A stretch of 24,641 nt of DNA from a virus. The stretch spans positions 1 through 24,641 of the IMG/VR virus record IMGVR_UViG_3300030102_002225; one strand, written 5' to 3'. The position numbers and the translations under genes are program-made. Shown one piece after another: positions 1,983 through 20,799 of the stretch; positions within the stretch are counted from its first letter, which is position 1; each line of letters begins with the position of its first letter. The notes below the pieces were generated by a model that saw only the letters and a list, made by a program, of their open reading frames with translations, made no database searches and had not been told where the DNA came from.

Positions 1983-3304
1983 GCATCCTGGCGTCAGTCC
2001 CGGGGGGCTCGATCCTCTCCGCTATCGAGTCCGCAACGCCCTTCACCGAGGCTGATCTGCGCGGATACGTCGATGGGCTAGCCGAGGGGCTAACAGGGCC
2101 CCAGCGCGAGGTGTGGGAGGCAAACAAGCGGTTCAAGCTGCTGTGCTCCGGTCGTCGTTTCGGTAAGACCTACCTGTGCATCACTCGGCTGATCTGCTGG
2201 GCGATGGAAAAGCCCGGGAGCCTGTGCTGGTACGTCACCGCGAACTATCGGATGGCGAAGCAAATCGCATGGCGTCAACTCAAGGCGATGGCCCCTGAGG
2301 AGCTGGTCGTTAAGCGGAACGAGTCGGACCTCTCGATCGAGTTCGCCAACGGCAGCCTGATCGCTCTGCGGGGCGCGGATAACGAGGACAGCCTGCGGGG
2401 TGTAAGCCTTTCGGCGCTTGTGATCGATGAGGCCGCATACGTCAAGCAGACGGCTTGGGAGATGGTCCTACGTCCTGCCCTATCAGACCAAAACGGCCCG
2501 GCCTGGTTCATTACTACCCCGGCAGGTCTTAACTGGTTCCACGACCTGTGGGAGCAGGCTCAGGAGCAAGCGGACTGGGACACCTTCTCCTTTACGACGA
2601 TTCAGGGCGGCAATGTTTCGGCGGAGGAGATCGAGGCCGCGCGGAACACTCTCGATGAACGCACCTTTAGGCAAGAATACCTAGCAAGCTTCGAGACGCT
2701 CTCGGGTCGGGTCTACCCCGGGTTCGATGACGAGAACATCAGCGAAGACGTTAAGGACACCGGCGGGCCGATCTACTGGGGCACTGACTTCAACGTCAGC
2801 ATCATGGCCGGCGTTCTCGGCAGCAGGGTCGGCGACACGCTTCATATCTGGGACGAGCTCGCCGTCAAGCAGTCGAACACCGACGAGGTATGCGCGATGC
2901 TTCGCGCTCGGTTCCCTGATCGGCAGATCATCGCCTATCCGGACCCAACCGGCTCAGCTCGTAAGACGTCCTCAGCCGGGCGTACAGATCACGACATCAT
3001 CCGTCGCTTCGGCTTCAGCTGTATAAGCCCGAAGGCTCCGTGGGCCGTGAAAGACAAAATTAACGCGACAAATTGGATGATCCGAACGGCGAAAGGCAGT
3101 CTGCGTCTATTCGTACATCCCCGCTGTAAACACACAATCAAGGCTCTAAAAAACGTGACCTACAAGCAAGGTGCGGAAGACTATGTGATCGACAAGTCGG
3201 CAAACATCGAGCACTGGACTGACGGGCTCGGCTACCTAATCCTCGGCGCGTTTAATCCTCTGCACGAACGCGCTGGACGGGGCACTGGCATCAGGCTTTA
3301 CTAA
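1979..3304 (+). CDS. Terminase large subunit (TerL), ATPase plus nuclease
   Basis: The motor that pumps DNA into the prohead and cuts the concatemer. N-terminal ATPase: Walker A SGRRFGKT (residues 57-64), Walker B LVIDEA (147-152) with the catalytic Glu, and a coupling motif FITTP (177-181). C-terminal RNase H-like nuclease: acidic residues in YWGTDFN (Asp 270), WDELAV (Glu 293) and AYPDPTG (Asp 322), with a further DGLGYLI motif near the end. At 441 residues it is a normal length with no break. It starts at an ATGA overlap with TerS. Codon choice is C/G-rich at third positions, like the two methyltransferase genes and unlike the portal gene that follows 27 nt later. Confidence 0.96.
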   Translation: MSILASVPGGSILSAIESATPFTEADLRGYVDGLAEGLTGPQREVWEANKRFKLLCSGRRFGKTYLCITRLICWAMEKPGSLCWYVTANYRMAKQIAWRQLKAMAPEELVVKRNESDLSIEFANGSLIALRGADNEDSLRGVSLSALVIDEAAYVKQTAWEMVLRPALSDQNGPAWFITTPAGLNWFHDLWEQAQEQADWDTFSFTTIQGGNVSAEEIEAARNTLDERTFRQEYLASFETLSGRVYPGFDDENISEDVKDTGGPIYWGTDFNVSIMAGVLGSRVGDTLHIWDELAVKQSNTDEVCAMLRARFPDRQIIAYPDPTGSARKTSSAGRTDHDIIRRFGFSCISPKAPWAVKDKINATNWMIRTAKGSLRLFVHPRCKHTIKALKNVTYKQGAEDYVIDKSANIEHWTDGLGYLILGAFNPLHERAGRGTGIRLY

Positions 3305-11548: not shown

Positions 11549-12292
11549 ATGGCAACCACTCTGTCCGGTACGTCCGGCGCCCTTTATTACAAGCCTGCTG
11601 GCACTGACAGCACGTTCACTGCATCGAACGTGACTAATGCCAGCAACAACATCATGGTGGGAACCTACCGAAACTTTAAGGTCAACGACAAGGTTTCGTT
11701 TGGTACCGGCACTGGCGGCACTCTGCCTGCTGGGCTTTCTGCCAGCACGGATGTGTTCATCAGAACCTATACCGCATCAACCGGCATCGCTACGTTTTCT
11801 GCCACAGCTGGCGGCACTGAGCTTGCTTTAACTGATGATGGCACGGATGGAACCACGCCGTTCACCATCAAGTTTGCTGAGTTTCAAGCGGTTGGAGCTG
11901 TTCGTGAATGGTCCTTTGAGATCACTCGCGATGAAATTGACGTGACCACTATTGGTCAAACCCTTGGTCAAAATGCACCGTTCAAGACCTACATCACCGG
12001 CTTTGCTGATGGTGAAGGCTCTGCCACCATCTACACCACTGACGACGATACCACTATTGCGTCACGCTTAGTGGAAGACGTGATCCAGCGGATTCAGACC
12101 GGCGTGCAGTTCAAGCTGTACATCGACCGCGTTGTCTCTTCTGGTTCTGTTGATGAAACGGCAAGCCGTTCCATCACGATGGAAGCTGTGCTGACTTCTG
12201 CCAGCTACTCCGTCAACCCAGATGATGCTCAGCAGATTGAAGTTTCATTCCGGCCTTCTGCTGTGCCAACTTTCGATCTTGCTAAGACCTGA
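11549..12292 (+). CDS. Major tail tube protein with an inserted domain
   Basis: A 247-residue structural protein in the tail tube position, just before a terminator and the tail chaperone. The tube core is visible as SGALYYKPAGT near the N-terminus and FAEFQAVGAVREWSFEITRD then EIDVTTIGQTLGQNAPFKTY in the middle, with IQTGVQFKLYIDR and a final EVSFRPSAVPTFDL. Between the first core strand and the AEFQAVGAV strand there is a Gly/Thr-rich insert (about residues 23-110, with NFKVNDKVSFGTGTGGTLPA and STDVFIRTYTASTGIATFSA). This probably folds as a separate beta domain on the tube surface. No strong ribosome site. Confidence 0.85.
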   Translation: MATTLSGTSGALYYKPAGTDSTFTASNVTNASNNIMVGTYRNFKVNDKVSFGTGTGGTLPAGLSASTDVFIRTYTASTGIATFSATAGGTELALTDDGTDGTTPFTIKFAEFQAVGAVREWSFEITRDEIDVTTIGQTLGQNAPFKTYITGFADGEGSATIYTTDDDTTIASRLVEDVIQRIQTGVQFKLYIDRVVSSGSVDETASRSITMEAVLTSASYSVNPDDAQQIEVSFRPSAVPTFDLAKT

Positions 12293-12314
12293 TCGTTTGT
12301 CACCCGTTTGTTTG

Positions 12315-12340
12315 GCCCTGGCTTGCGCTGGGGCTTTTTT
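12315..12340 (+). terminator. Intrinsic terminator after the tail tube gene
   Basis: GCCCTGGC (12315-12322) pairs with GCTGGGGC (12327-12334) around a TTGC loop, eight pairs with two G-U, followed directly by six T residues. It lies 23 nt after the tail tube stop and inside an otherwise co-directional structural operon, so it probably attenuates rather than blocks transcription. Confidence 0.8.
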
Positions 12341-12375: not shown

Positions 12376-12729
12376 ATGTCTTCTAGTGCAAGCGGACGCG
12401 CACTTGATCGCCTTAAGAAAGCTGCAAATCTGACGCCAGTGAAGCGTATTGTGGTCCTGAGTAATGGGGATGAGTTTGTATTTTGGTCGACGCCTTTGAC
12501 CATGGCAGAGCGTGAGCGGGCTCAAAAGCAGGCCAATTCAGACGATGCCAATCAGTATGCTTTGCAGCTTTTGGTCAACAAAGCCACTGACGAAAACGGT
12601 CAGCGGATGTTCAAAGCTGGCGAACTTGCTGAGCTGAAAAATGAAGTGCGTGACGAAGACCTCCAGTCTTTGATGGTTGCCCTGATTACTGGCGAAGGCA
12701 ATGTCACTGAGGATGAGGCAAAAAACTAA
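12376..12729 (+). CDS. Tail assembly chaperone, short form (gpG-like)
   Basis: A 117-residue protein between the tail tube and tape measure genes, the standard place for the lambda G/GT chaperones that coat the tape measure before tube assembly. It has a basic N-terminus (RALDRLKKAANLTPVKRIVV), a beta segment (NGDEFVFWSTPLTMAERERA) and a helical acidic C-terminal part (ELAELKNEVRDEDLQSLMVA) ending in DEAKN. The last codons GCA AAA AAC TAA contain the slippery heptamer A_AAA_AAC right before the stop. It is separated from the upstream gene by a terminator. Annotate together with the frameshifted long form. Confidence 0.85.
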   Translation: MSSSASGRALDRLKKAANLTPVKRIVVLSNGDEFVFWSTPLTMAERERAQKQANSDDANQYALQLLVNKATDENGQRMFKAGELAELKNEVRDEDLQSLMVALITGEGNVTEDEAKN

Positions 12730-12911
12730 GCAAGCTCTTCAAGGATGATTGGCCTTTGAGAGTGCAGATGCGTGTGGCCCGTGAACTGGGTTACACGCTT
12801 TCTGAGCTTTCAAGCAAGATGTCCCGCGAAGAGCTGCAGCTTTGGTGCCTGTTGTTTGAGGTAGAGGCTGAGGAGCAGCAGGAGATGCGCCGGAAAGCCA
12901 AGCGGCGGTAG
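12376..12911 (+). CDS. Tail assembly chaperone, long form by -1 frameshift (gpGT-like)
   Basis: If the ribosome slips one base back at A_AAA_AAC (12720-12726), translation goes on from 12726 in the -1 frame for 61 codons to TAG 12909-12911, giving about 178 residues. The added domain begins LSKLFKDDWPLRVQ, has a helix MRVARELGYTLSEL, then SKMSREELQLWCLLFEVEAE and a basic end (MRRKAKRR). The LSKMSREELQLW-LLFEVE pattern is typical of gpT-type extensions in siphophages. The extension has no good start of its own. Known systems use this mechanism to make a small amount of GT that binds the tape measure. Confidence 0.85.
12720..12762 (+). promoter_or_regulatory. Programmed -1 ribosomal frameshift signal
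   Basis: The slippery heptamer A AAA AAC occupies 12720-12726 in the correct register, ending at the last sense codon before TAA. After an 8-nt spacer (12727-12734) a stem-loop can form: CTCTTCAAGG (12735-12744) with CCTTTGAGAG (12753-12762), ten positions with one G-U and one C-T mismatch, loop of 8 nt. Heptamer, spacer and stem match the canonical arrangement. Confidence 0.85.
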
Positions 12912-12937: not shown

Positions 12938-15232
12938 GTGGCGGGCCAGGTTGTAATTGAACTTACCGCGCAGGACAAGATCTCAGGTGTTCTGAGCAAG
13001 ATCAATGGTGAAGCTCGAAACCTGCAAAAGAATCTTGGTGGGGCGGTTAAAAATGTAGGCAACAGCTTTAAGGGCCTTCAGGCCAAAGCTGTAAACCTGC
13101 AAAGCGCATTAGGTTCCTTAGCGATTGGTGCAGTTGTTAAAGGGTTTGCTCAGGCTGGCGTAGAGGCAGACCGCACCGCAAAACGGTTGAAGTTCCTGGG
13201 TGATCAGTTTGGGGAAAGTGCCAAGCTGCAGCAGTTCGCCAATGAAGCTGCGGAGAAGTTTACGTTGGGCCAAACAGATGCTGCCAATGCGGTGGGCGAT
13301 TTGTTTGGCCGCTTGCGGCCTATGGGCGCATCTTTGGATGACATCAAAACCGTTTTTAACGGGGTGAATGTTGCCGCAAGGCAAATGAACCTCAGCACGG
13401 CTGACACTGAAGGTGTCATGCTGCAGTTAAGCCAGGCACTGGGTTCAGGAAAGCTCCAAGGGGATGAGTTCAGGAGCATCATGGAGCGGCTGCCAAAAAT
13501 CGGCCAAGCCGTTGCCAAGTCAATGGGTGTAACTGTTGGTCAGTTAAAAGACCTCAGCAGCCAGGGCAAGCTCACAACCGATGTAATTATCAAGGCGCTT
13601 AAAGGCATCGAGAAGCAAGGCTTCCCAGAGTCGGATGGCGTGCGTCAGTTTAATAAAGCGATGTCAGATTTATCAACGACAATCGGGCAGCGTTTAACGC
13701 CTATTCTTGATCCGATCTTGAAAGGCATCGCTGGATTGGTTGGCAAGTTTTTGGAGCTGCCTGAGCCGGTTCAAGCTGCTGTTATCGGGTTTGGTGCTGT
13801 TGCCACGGCTTTTGCCGCGATTGCGCCTTTGCTTCCAATCATTGCTACTGGCATTGGCGCCGTTGTCGCTGTGCTGACGGGCCCTGTTGGCATTGTCGCT
13901 GGCATTACTGCGGTTGTCGCCGCTTTTGTGACCATGAAAGGAAAGGCCGAAGAAACAAAAGAGCCTATGTCGCAAATCGCTTCTGAGGCCGACAAAACCA
14001 AAACCGCCATAGAAGCTGCAGCTAGAGCTAAGCAGGAATTTATTGACAAAACCAAACAACATATAAGTGCATTAGAGGAAGAGTTATCTCAAATCAAACA
14101 AGCAGAGCAATCTTATGAGAACACGATTAAAATTACCGATGCTCGCTTAAATGCAGAGAGAGAAATAAATAGCTTACAAGGTCAGATTCTTGAGAGTGCA
14201 TACGAGCAGGCAGGTACAGCTCGAGAACGGCTCAATATCGCAAAACAAATTTATGAAAATGAGCTCCAGGGTGCAAAGATTGCTTATGAGCAAACGTTAA
14301 ACAGCATTGAGGCAGAAAAGCAGCGGCTTGAGTTCCGCAGGCAAACGGCAGAAGTTGAGGCTCAAATTATTCAGGCAAAAGGTGAGCTAGCAGCGGCTGA
14401 AGCAAAAAGCGCTGAAAAAGCTGAGTTGATTCTTGAAAAAACAAAGAAAGCAGTATCAGCGCAACAAGAAAACGTTCGTGTTATTGAGGGGCAAATCGAC
14501 GCTCAAAGTGAAATTGCTGAGCACCAAATTACGGCGGCCAACGCAGTGTTAAGGCAAAACGAACTCACGGCAAAGCAAAATTACGAGCAAAAATTAGTCA
14601 ATGACCAATTAGTTAAAGGTAAAACCGAAGCCCAAAACTTGGGGAACAAGATTCTAGAAAGCCATGGGCATACGGATAGGCTGAAAACTGCAACAGGGGA
14701 AGTTTCTACAAATGCTGCAAACGCAGCAGGCAATTTCATCCGAGTTGCCACTGCGGCGGATCAAGCCGCTGCTGCTATTAACCGCGCAGCCGCTGCGCAA
14801 AGATCTTTGAATGCTGCACGATCACAGAGCAGCTCAAATTCAGGGCCTGTCCAGCAGGCCGCAGGCGGTTACAACCTTGGTTCGTTTACACCTTTTGCTA
14901 AGGGCGGAGTTGTCAGAGGCCCCACGCTTGGCCTCATCGGTGAAGGCGGCGAGCCTGAATACATCATCCCGCAGAGTAAGGCGGCTGGCTTTGCGGCTAA
15001 CTTCCTTTCAGGCAAGCGTGGCGCAGGCGCTATCCCAGGCTTTGCAGAAGGCGGTATGGCCGTTCCTTCATCGGCAAGCGTCAACATTCAGACTGGCCCA
15101 GTCACCCAAATGGATGGGCAGAACTTCGTTACCACTGCTGAGCTAGGCGCAGCCGTTGAGGCAGGCGTGGTACAGACTTTAGACATGCTGCGCCGCGATC
15201 AAATGACCCGAGCAAGCATGGGGCTTAACTGA
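12938..15232 (+). CDS. Tape measure protein
   Basis: Sets tail length and is ejected ahead of DNA. 764 residues. N-terminal part: AQDKISGVLSKINGEARNLQ, then the tape measure N-terminal domain (about residues 75-230) with FGRLRPMGASLDDIKTVFNG, LQLSQALGSGKLQGDEFRSI and ERLPKIGQAVAKSMGV. About 274-334 is a hydrophobic Ala/Val/Ile/Gly stretch, a probable membrane-active segment. About 350-570 is a long charged coiled coil, noticeably more A-rich in DNA than its surroundings. The C-terminus carries the common GGVVRGPTLGLIGEGGEPEY motif. GTG start at 12938, 26 nt after the chaperone extension. At about 0.15 nm per residue, the tail would be roughly 115 nm (inference). No lytic domain seen. Confidence 0.93.
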   Translation: MAGQVVIELTAQDKISGVLSKINGEARNLQKNLGGAVKNVGNSFKGLQAKAVNLQSALGSLAIGAVVKGFAQAGVEADRTAKRLKFLGDQFGESAKLQQFANEAAEKFTLGQTDAANAVGDLFGRLRPMGASLDDIKTVFNGVNVAARQMNLSTADTEGVMLQLSQALGSGKLQGDEFRSIMERLPKIGQAVAKSMGVTVGQLKDLSSQGKLTTDVIIKALKGIEKQGFPESDGVRQFNKAMSDLSTTIGQRLTPILDPILKGIAGLVGKFLELPEPVQAAVIGFGAVATAFAAIAPLLPIIATGIGAVVAVLTGPVGIVAGITAVVAAFVTMKGKAEETKEPMSQIASEADKTKTAIEAAARAKQEFIDKTKQHISALEEELSQIKQAEQSYENTIKITDARLNAEREINSLQGQILESAYEQAGTARERLNIAKQIYENELQGAKIAYEQTLNSIEAEKQRLEFRRQTAEVEAQIIQAKGELAAAEAKSAEKAELILEKTKKAVSAQQENVRVIEGQIDAQSEIAEHQITAANAVLRQNELTAKQNYEQKLVNDQLVKGKTEAQNLGNKILESHGHTDRLKTATGEVSTNAANAAGNFIRVATAADQAAAAINRAAAAQRSLNAARSQSSSNSGPVQQAAGGYNLGSFTPFAKGGVVRGPTLGLIGEGGEPEYIIPQSKAAGFAANFLSGKRGAGAIPGFAEGGMAVPSSASVNIQTGPVTQMDGQNFVTTAELGAAVEAGVVQTLDMLRRDQMTRASMGLN

Positions 15233-18400: not shown

Positions 18401-18907
18401 ATGGCAAGCATTTTCCCTGAAATATCCCCAAACGTCCGTGTTTATTCCAACGGTGGATTTGTAACGGCTGATCGAACTGCTGCCAGTGGCGCTTATACAG
18501 GATTTCGCAGAGGCAGTAGGCAAGTTGGTCAGACGCTTCAAATGCAGTTCAAATATCTGACAGAGGAAAAGATGAATGAAATTAAAACGCACTATTTAGA
18601 AAGAAAGGGCTCATTTGATTTTTTTCTTGCCTCTGCGTCTATGTGGGGCGATTACGCCGGCCACCCTCCAGTCCCTTTGCTCGGCGACACCGTTTGGCGG
18701 TTTGCAAGTCCGCCTCTGGTAACTGATGTCTCTTTTGACCGTTTTGACGTTTCTGTTGACCTCATAAGCCACGCAGTGCTGCAGGGAGATATTTTCGGGG
18801 CATCTGTTGACGCGACAACTGCTGCAGCTGCTGCGGCTGATTACATCTATGATGGAAAGCAGGCTTCAACAGTCCACGCATACAACATTGACGCTGGGGC
18901 ATCATGA
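18401..18907 (+). CDS. Minor tail protein, paralogue B with C-terminal extension
   Basis: A 168-residue paralogue of the preceding gene: IFPEISPNVRVYSNGGF, GFRRGSRQVGQTLQMQFKYL, TEEKMNEIKTHYLERKGSFD, FFLASASMWGDY and a final FDRFDVSVDLISHAV align with it block by block. It then carries an extra Ala/Asp-rich segment (FGASVDATTAAAAAADYIYD) and ends in a short tail of about 20 residues, absent from the paralogue. The extension could be a fibre attachment peptide, because the next gene (ATGA overlap) is the tail fibre. Role inferred. Confidence 0.62.
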   Translation: MASIFPEISPNVRVYSNGGFVTADRTAASGAYTGFRRGSRQVGQTLQMQFKYLTEEKMNEIKTHYLERKGSFDFFLASASMWGDYAGHPPVPLLGDTVWRFASPPLVTDVSFDRFDVSVDLISHAVLQGDIFGASVDATTAAAAAADYIYDGKQASTVHAYNIDAGAS

Positions 18908-20799
18908 CCATTCAACTAACCACATTGATGCAACAGCGGCGGGATACTGCCGCGAACTGGACGAGCAATAATCCAACGCTGAGAGACGGTGAAATTGGTT
19001 ACGAAAAAGATACTGGATACATAAAAATCGGGGATGGTTCAACAGCTTGGACCTCGCTTGCTTATATCGATGGAACAAAGGTCAGCGCATATCCGCTGGC
19101 GACTGTTGACATCGCGGACGACGCGATTACTGCCGCAAAACTTGCTGACACCTCTGTCACTGCTGGGTCTTATACAACTGCAGATATCACGGTTGATGCT
19201 CAAGGCCGAATCACTGCGGCTAGCTCGGGGACGATTGGCACTAGCGAAATTTCTGATGGTTCTATCACCTCAGCCAAGCTTGACACAAACATTGACATCG
19301 CCGGAACGCTAGATGTTACTGGCGTTGGCACTTTTGACAGCAACGTAACAATCGCCGGAAACCTCACAGTCAACGGCACGACCACAACGGTCAACAGCAC
19401 AACGCTGACTGTTGATGACAAGAACATTGAGCTTGGCAGCGTTGCTACGCCAACTGATGTGACCGCCGACGGTGGTGGCATCACGTTAAAGGGCGCGACT
19501 GATCACACCATTGTTTGGACAAACAGCACGGACAGCTGGGATTTTTCTGAACACGTCAACATTGCTAGCGCCAAAGAGTTTCGCATTGCGGGGACAAAGG
19601 TTCTGGATGCCACAAGCTTGGGGAGTGCTGTTGTCACCTCAAGCCTGACAAGCGTTGGCACGATTGCCACAGGCGTTTGGAATGGCACGCCGATCGCAAC
19701 TGCTTACATCGCAGACGATGCTGTCACTGCTGCCAAACTGGCAGACACTGCCGTAACAGCAGGCAGCTATACAGCGGCTGATATTACTATTGATGCGCAA
19801 GGGCGAATCACCGCAGCCGCAAACGGTGCAATCTCTACGGCGGAGATTACTGATTCTGCTGTCACGACAGCAAAGATCAATGATGACGCTGTAACTGCTG
19901 CCAAGTTAGCGGACACTTCTGTAACGGCTGGAAGTTATACGGCAGCTGACATCACGGTTGATGCGCAAGGACGCATAACGGCTGCATCTTCTGGAACAAT
20001 CAGCACTGGTGAAATCGCTGACTCTGCTGTTACGACGGCAAAGATCAACAATGACGCTGTTACTGCTGCGAAGTTGGCAGATACATCAGTTTCGGCTGGA
20101 AGTTATACCAACGCCGACATCACAGTTGATGCCCAGGGCAGGATTACGGCTGCTGCCAACGGTTCTAGCGCTACCGGCACAGTAACGAGCGTCAACATCA
20201 CTGGTGGTACTGGCCTGTCGGCAACAGGTGGGCCGATTACAACTAGCGGTTCAATCACTGTTGATCTTGATAACACTTCTGTCACGGCAGGCAGTTACAC
20301 GGCAGCCGACATCACGGTTGACGCCCAGGGTCGCATTACAGCGGCAGCGTCCGGAACTATTAGCACGTCTGAAATTGCAGACGATGCCGTTACTGCGGCA
20401 AAGCTTGCCGACACTGCTGTAACTGCTGGCAGTTACACATTGAGCAGCATCACAGTTGATGCGCAGGGAAGAATCACCTCCGCATCCTCTGGGTCTGCTG
20501 GCGTCCCGCAAAACTCTCAAACCTCGGCATATACTTTGGTTGCTGGTGATGTTGGCAAACACGTCAACATCACAACCGGCGGCGTCACTGTTCCTTCTGG
20601 GGTGTTTTCTGTAGGAGATGCGGTCAGCATTTACAACGACAGTTCGTCAGATCAAACAATCACACAGGGGTCATCCGTCACTCTGCGCCTGGCTGGTGAT
20701 GGCACCACCGGAAACAAAACCCTCGCGAACTATGGGCTTTGCACTGTTCTCTGCGTAACCTCTAATGAATTTGTAATTGCTGGAACAGGGCTGAGCTGA
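18904..20799 (+). CDS. Tail fibre with Mtd-N-like head and repeated shaft
   Basis: A 631-residue fibre. Residues about 10-60 (MQQRRDTAANWTSNNPTLRD, then YIKIGDGSTAWTSLAY) match the N-terminal domain seen in Bordetella major tropism determinant and many phage fibres. The middle is built of about 38-residue units (DDAVTAAKLADTSVTAGSYT then AADITVDAQGRITAASSG), five complete plus one partial, interrupted by a distinct region (NLTVNGTTTTVNSTTLTVDD, ATDHTIVWTNSTDSWDF). The C-terminal part (SQTSAYTLVAGDVGKHVNIT, then VGDAVSIYNDSSSDQTI) is a common cyanophage fibre tip. Probably trimeric and host-binding. ATGA start, TGATG stop-start with the Gly-rich gene. Confidence 0.85.
   Translation: MTIQLTTLMQQRRDTAANWTSNNPTLRDGEIGYEKDTGYIKIGDGSTAWTSLAYIDGTKVSAYPLATVDIADDAITAAKLADTSVTAGSYTTADITVDAQGRITAASSGTIGTSEISDGSITSAKLDTNIDIAGTLDVTGVGTFDSNVTIAGNLTVNGTTTTVNSTTLTVDDKNIELGSVATPTDVTADGGGITLKGATDHTIVWTNSTDSWDFSEHVNIASAKEFRIAGTKVLDATSLGSAVVTSSLTSVGTIATGVWNGTPIATAYIADDAVTAAKLADTAVTAGSYTAADITIDAQGRITAAANGAISTAEITDSAVTTAKINDDAVTAAKLADTSVTAGSYTAADITVDAQGRITAASSGTISTGEIADSAVTTAKINNDAVTAAKLADTSVSAGSYTNADITVDAQGRITAAANGSSATGTVTSVNITGGTGLSATGGPITTSGSITVDLDNTSVTAGSYTAADITVDAQGRITAAASGTISTSEIADDAVTAAKLADTAVTAGSYTLSSITVDAQGRITSASSGSAGVPQNSQTSAYTLVAGDVGKHVNITTGGVTVPSGVFSVGDAVSIYNDSSSDQTITQGSSVTLRLAGDGTTGNKTLANYGLCTVLCVTSNEFVIAGTGLS
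19117..20493 (+). repeat. Array of 38-codon repeats in the tail fibre
   Basis: Complete 114-nt units at 19117-19230, 19714-19827, 19882-19995, 20050-20163 and 20380-20493, plus a partial unit (20272-20355) lacking the first 10 codons. Units 2, 3 and 4 start exactly 168 nt apart. The protein sequences are nearly identical (D-A-x-T-A-A-K-L-A-D-T...A-Q-G-R-I-T) but codons differ between units, so they are old duplications kept by selection on the protein. Confidence 0.9.

Follow-up and report, generated by a model that had tools for sequence, protein, structure and literature searches.

Organisation of the tail module

The window analysed here is the whole of a 24.6-kb viral record (IMGVR_UViG_3300030102_002225, positions 1-24,641). 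The phage is marine and its relatives are aquatic phages. The tail module holds the following features:

11549-12292, plus strand: major tail protein, as expected on the upstream side (phrog_1407, E 2e-7)
12376-12729, plus strand: putative short tail assembly chaperone G, 117 aa, with its stop TAA at 12727-12729 (open reading frame; phrog_20784; phrog_344; fold similar to 2ob9)
12726-12911, plus strand: putative T extension in the -1 frame, 61 codons and TAG at 12909-12911 (open frame; pN/pS; phrog_337)
12938-15232, plus strand: tape measure protein, as expected on the downstream side (PF20155, E 2e-35)

The order of the module, from the major tail protein through G and the -1 extension to the tape measure protein, places the overlapping pair where a G/GT pair is expected. 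The assignment of G as a tail assembly chaperone is supported by the agreement of gene order, predicted fold and frame arrangement, the E-values themselves being modest. Its strongest match is phrog_20784 (E 2.5e-37), a family with no assigned function, and the match to the tail assembly chaperone family phrog_344 is weaker (E 6e-4); the latter family is matched by 16 of 23 G homologues, with a modest significance (best E 4.5e-5). The structure model of G, which is of medium confidence (mean pLDDT 73), has as its best solved-structure match the HK97 tail chaperone 2ob9 (E 1.5e-3, probability 1.00, TM 0.46-0.49). Sequence searches of the PDB found no chaperone.

The isolates closest by G are mostly Synechococcus phages, and the terminase is closest to that of cyanophage S-2L, with Vibrio phages next. 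Several other elements of the window may be recorded. A terminator-like hairpin followed by a T run lies between the major tail protein and chaperone genes (12314-12335) and may reduce the transcription of the genes downstream. The translation of ORF 72-1028, judged by eye only, resembles a cytosine-5 DNA methyltransferase. A 168-base tandem repeat (19850-20153) is located within ORF 18904-20799, whose translation repeats a AVTAAKLADTSVTAGSYT-DITVDAQGRITAA motif and is fibre-like by appearance.

The slip site and its conservation

Three elements surround the end of the G reading frame:

12709-12713, plus strand: Shine-Dalgarno-like GAGGA, 5' of the slip site, a possible stimulator (GAG codon bias)
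12720-12726, plus strand: putative slippery heptamer A_AAA_AAC in the -1 register (sequence; AAAAAA[C/A/T] in register in relatives)
12727-12729, plus strand: 0-frame stop adjoining the heptamer, TAA here and TAA, TAG or TGA in the relatives compared

The preliminary description had proposed that A_AAA_AAC sits in the correct register before the stop of the chaperone and that the -1 frame adds a 61-codon domain with gpT-like features, and each of these points was borne out. The end of G reads gcA_AAA_AAC_TAA, which puts the heptamer in the X_XXY_YYZ register of ORF 12376-12729 with TAA as the next codon, and the -1 frame is open from the slip to the TAG. The heptamer is not rare in the window, where five copies of AAAAAAC are observed and 5.9 are expected, and a second in-register heptamer, in the terminase gene at 3148, opens only 24 codons. 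This frequency is at chance level, and the case for the slip site is built on position and conservation. Upstream of the heptamer, 53 of 56 Glu codons at the place of GAGGA are GAG, against 42% elsewhere in G; that GAGGA stimulates slippage is a guess. In E. coli, A_AAA_AAC slips less than A_AAA_AAG.

Close relatives were taken from viral contigs, with duplicates removed before counting; a search of the genome_contigs set found no relatives there. As the relatives are mostly metagenomic contigs that share ancestry, the following locus counts do not represent independent events. AAAAAA[C/A/T] is found in register, with a stop immediately after it, in 74 distinct loci, and the heptamer of lambda, GGGAAAG (G_GGA_AAG), followed by TAG, occupies the same place in six further loci. 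The extension has 61 codons in 66 loci and 58, 59 or 62 in a few. The heptamer and the extension are thus kept together in relatives, the test that the preliminary description had itself suggested. AAAAAAC, TAA and a -1 extension are arranged in the same way in the isolate KBS-S-2A, which bears out the concern that gene callers would lose the C-terminal part. A chance heptamer ahead of an unrelated open frame would agree with the ordinary frequency of AAAAAAC in the window, but this explanation is rejected by the conservation in 74 distinct loci together with the selection on the -1 frame described below, and we regard its probability as negligible.

Variants of the junction were also encountered. 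Two loci without the pattern, one with a deletion in T (L013) and one with an indel in G (L130), look damaged or misassembled. In the S-H1 group, AAAAAAC is followed by one codon and then the stop, and an in-register CCCAAAG occurs in S-2L. In the MED4-184 group (67 loci; L292-L371 and L086), T is in the -1 frame at a non-canonical AAAGGAATCY, with no canonical heptamer. The junction of this group is conserved as AAAGGAATC[CT]_TAA_[AG]GGGGG.

The -1 frame evolves as protein

Read in the -1 frame, the stretch from the slip to the first in-frame ATG has a pN/pS of 0.45 and the remainder one of 0.29, with no stops; the values for the other frames are 0.86-1.66. These values indicate that the T sequence is constrained as protein in the -1 frame, with purifying selection setting in immediately past the slip. 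The gpT-like character noted earlier is consistent with its match to the tail protein family phrog_337, which was found in 14 of the 14 homologues tested.

The in-frame ATG at 12768 raises the alternative that T is started independently as a separate 47-aa protein, the heptamer being kept for other reasons. This ATG is retained in 54 of 57 close relatives. In the stretch 12759-12770 the Arg codon AGG is strongly favoured just 5' of it (32 of the 54, against ~7% of Arg codons elsewhere), giving an SD-like GAGG or AAGG that might permit a second, internal start. Against an independent start, the -1 frame is conserved at the protein level 5' of the ATG as well; moreover, KBS-S-2A lacks the ATG, as do the L073, S-H1, MED4-184 and AG-345-A17 groups, all of which have T, and in the window it lies at the foot of a hairpin, HP2. 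We therefore consider this explanation very unlikely.

A selected RNA structure downstream of the slip site

Three structural elements were evaluated 3' of the heptamer, where a stimulatory RNA structure is common at G/GT sites but not obligatory:

12730-12765, plus strand: local hairpin HP1, near the stem-loop of the preliminary description, weak and poorly kept (folding, shuffles)
12770-12798, plus strand: 12-bp hairpin HP2, conserved and covarying (alignment pairing, shuffles)
12732-12809, plus strand: candidate long-range stem AAGCUC (12732-12737) / GAGCUU (12804-12809) around HP2 (RNAalifold, 32 close relatives; best-stem search)

The stem-loop named in the preliminary description (12735-12762) lies near a predicted local hairpin, but its role as a stimulator was not upheld. 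HP1 folds at -12.2 kcal/mol, with a z of -1.25 against dinucleotide shuffles, of which 20 in 200 fold as well, and of -2.85 against synonymous shuffles. Its pairing is maintained in only 63% of cells across 57 relatives, several close relatives being without the hairpin, and HP1 was rejected as the stimulator on the grounds of this weakness and poor maintenance.

HP2 is far better maintained. Across the 57 relatives 87.9% of cells pair, falling to 19-47% when the partner is shifted by 1-3 columns, and the two-sided changes exceed those of all 500 shuffles; examples of the covariation are Val GTA opposite Tyr TAC and Ile ATA opposite Tyr TAT. HP2 begins 43 nt past the heptamer, which would be too far away for it to work by itself at the mRNA entry site. 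It probably sits inside a larger fold. The long-range stem that could enclose it has moderate support per sequence (46% of sequences at p < 0.05), and it competes with an extended HP2 hairpin, which is favoured by the minimum-energy fold of the window. In another clade, an outer stem of 8-11 bp with a different sequence lies in nearly the same place (UGCGUCAA/UUGACGCA, GCUGUGUC/GACACAGC), a register-specific count giving it weak support over the whole set.

The first 99 nt past the slip, compared with synonymous recoding, have a mean z of -3.45 in the family of the window and of -4.09 in the S-H1 group, against -1.4 to +0.2 for control stretches in the same loci; for the family of the window the controls span -1.05 to +0.2. 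RNAalifold over the 57 sequences found no single fold common to all, distant relatives carry other strong folds downstream, and a search of Rfam found nothing relevant. On these comparisons the downstream structure looks selected, with HP2 as its best-conserved part and candidate stimulatory folds that compete.

Proposed mechanism

We propose that programmed -1 ribosomal frameshifting of the lambda G/GT type takes place at 12720-12726. The heptamer, its register, the stop, the extension, the conservation of these elements and the purifying selection acting on the -1 frame, together with the conserved structured RNA downstream, make this almost certain. Most ribosomes would terminate at the TAA at 12727 and release the 117-aa chaperone G, and a minority would slip back by one base on A_AAA_AAC and read 61 further codons, yielding a G-T fusion of 178 aa. 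If the proteins behave as in lambda, G would bind the tape measure protein, with T recruiting the major tail protein. We infer both the slippage in the cell and these roles of the two products.

The fusion could also be thought to arise from mRNA edited by slippage of the RNA polymerase on the A run rather than from the ribosome, given that a run of six or seven A is present at the junction in most members. Such a run is short for efficient transcriptional slippage. In addition, six loci have GGGAAAG instead of the run, a C interrupts it in most members with the codon register kept, and a structure downstream of the site is selected, all of which make polymerase slippage extremely unlikely.

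The predicted direction of the shift differs within the family

In 31 distinct loci whose G is ~55-68% identical to that of the window (e.g. L129, L373-L377), T is in the +1 frame, and ATG AAA AGC or CTC AAA AGC precedes it in all of them (in L375, around 2833). In the more distant, marine AG-345-A17 group (L132-L211), T is in +1 at TTR AAA AGN in 71 of 71 distinct loci. With this group included, 94 of 102 distinct +1 loci have a +1-frame stop directly 5' of the slipped AAA as placed by our script, and the shift must thus fall at or after the AAA codon. The +1 loci can be accounted for by a putative slip from AAA onto the AAA that overlaps it, with GCN read next; at these, the MED4-184 and the S-2L sites the slip mechanism is putative. 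The predicted fusion is colinear across the junction, as seen when KBS-S-2A (-1; DVKN-LKQELKKDN) is aligned with L375 (+1; DMK-ALKAELKKDN). Downstream of the slip, the 31-locus +1 clade has some structure (z -2.09), and no selected structure was detected in the AG-345-A17 group (z -0.26) or in the MED4-184 group (z -0.17, from four rows only).

A tree of G and T from which the junction was left out has two changes of direction, and a single change occurred in 0 of 200 bootstrap trees; an AU test did not reject a single +1 clade (p 0.144). The predicted direction of the shift has thus changed at least once in the family, two changes being placed on the best tree and one being compatible with the AU test. 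It is likely, in our view, that within one chaperone family of aquatic phages the direction flipped between -1, at A_AAA_AAC or G_GGA_AAG with structured RNA, and +1, with a P-site Lys at AAA_AGC, the fusion remaining colinear. If this is true, selection acts on the fusion and not on the decoding route.

Discussion

The present analysis corrects a gene model that automatic annotation cuts short, and the family concerned counts hundreds of metagenomic members. Related loci allow -1 and +1 routes to nearly the same product to be compared in nature, with and without RNA structure, so that the requirements of frameshift signals in the hosts of these phages can be tested. A limited search of the open-access literature found no paper describing a frameshift for this cyanosiphovirus group, and what a specialist might not know is the apparent switch of direction inside a single family whose product stays colinear.

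The likeness to lambda G/GT in the preliminary description holds, and the element appears to be of the ordinary G/GT type, with a conserved heptamer, selection on the -1 frame, a chaperone family and fold, and the tape measure gene next to it. As in the lambda gpG/gpGT -1 frameshift (Levin et al, 1993; Xu, Hendrix and Duda, reviewed in PMC5009743), a short chaperone gene is flanked by those of the major tail protein and the tape measure protein, with a slip near its 3' end and a -1 extension carrying a T domain, and the GGGAAAG of lambda itself is present in six relatives of the window. The window differs in having A_AAA_AAC rather than G_GGA_AAG, a stop directly after the heptamer, a short T of 61 codons and, downstream, RNA structure that appears to be under selection. 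Cyanophage KBS-S-2A (HQ634187) shares AAAAAAC, TAA and the -1 extension, with a G homologue 74% identical over 97 aa; it differs in that its G is annotated only as "hypothetical protein" and its T is unannotated. Among solved structures, HK97 gp13 (2ob9) comes closest to the predicted fold of G, but with 16% sequence identity, an E of 1.5e-3 and a model of medium confidence. Frameshifts of the +1 type are found in tail or coat genes of the Listeria phages PSA, A118 and A500 and of HSTV-2 (PMC5009743), which resemble the present family in that the direction of frameshifting in structural genes varies among phages; the Listeria phages slip at CCC_UGA or CCC, whereas the +1 relatives described here would do so at AAA_AGC. 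Atkins et al (2016; PMC5009743) state that the shift serving this purpose in tailed phages is -1, -2 or +1, depending on the phage, so that neither the element of the window nor the occurrence of other directions is new in kind.
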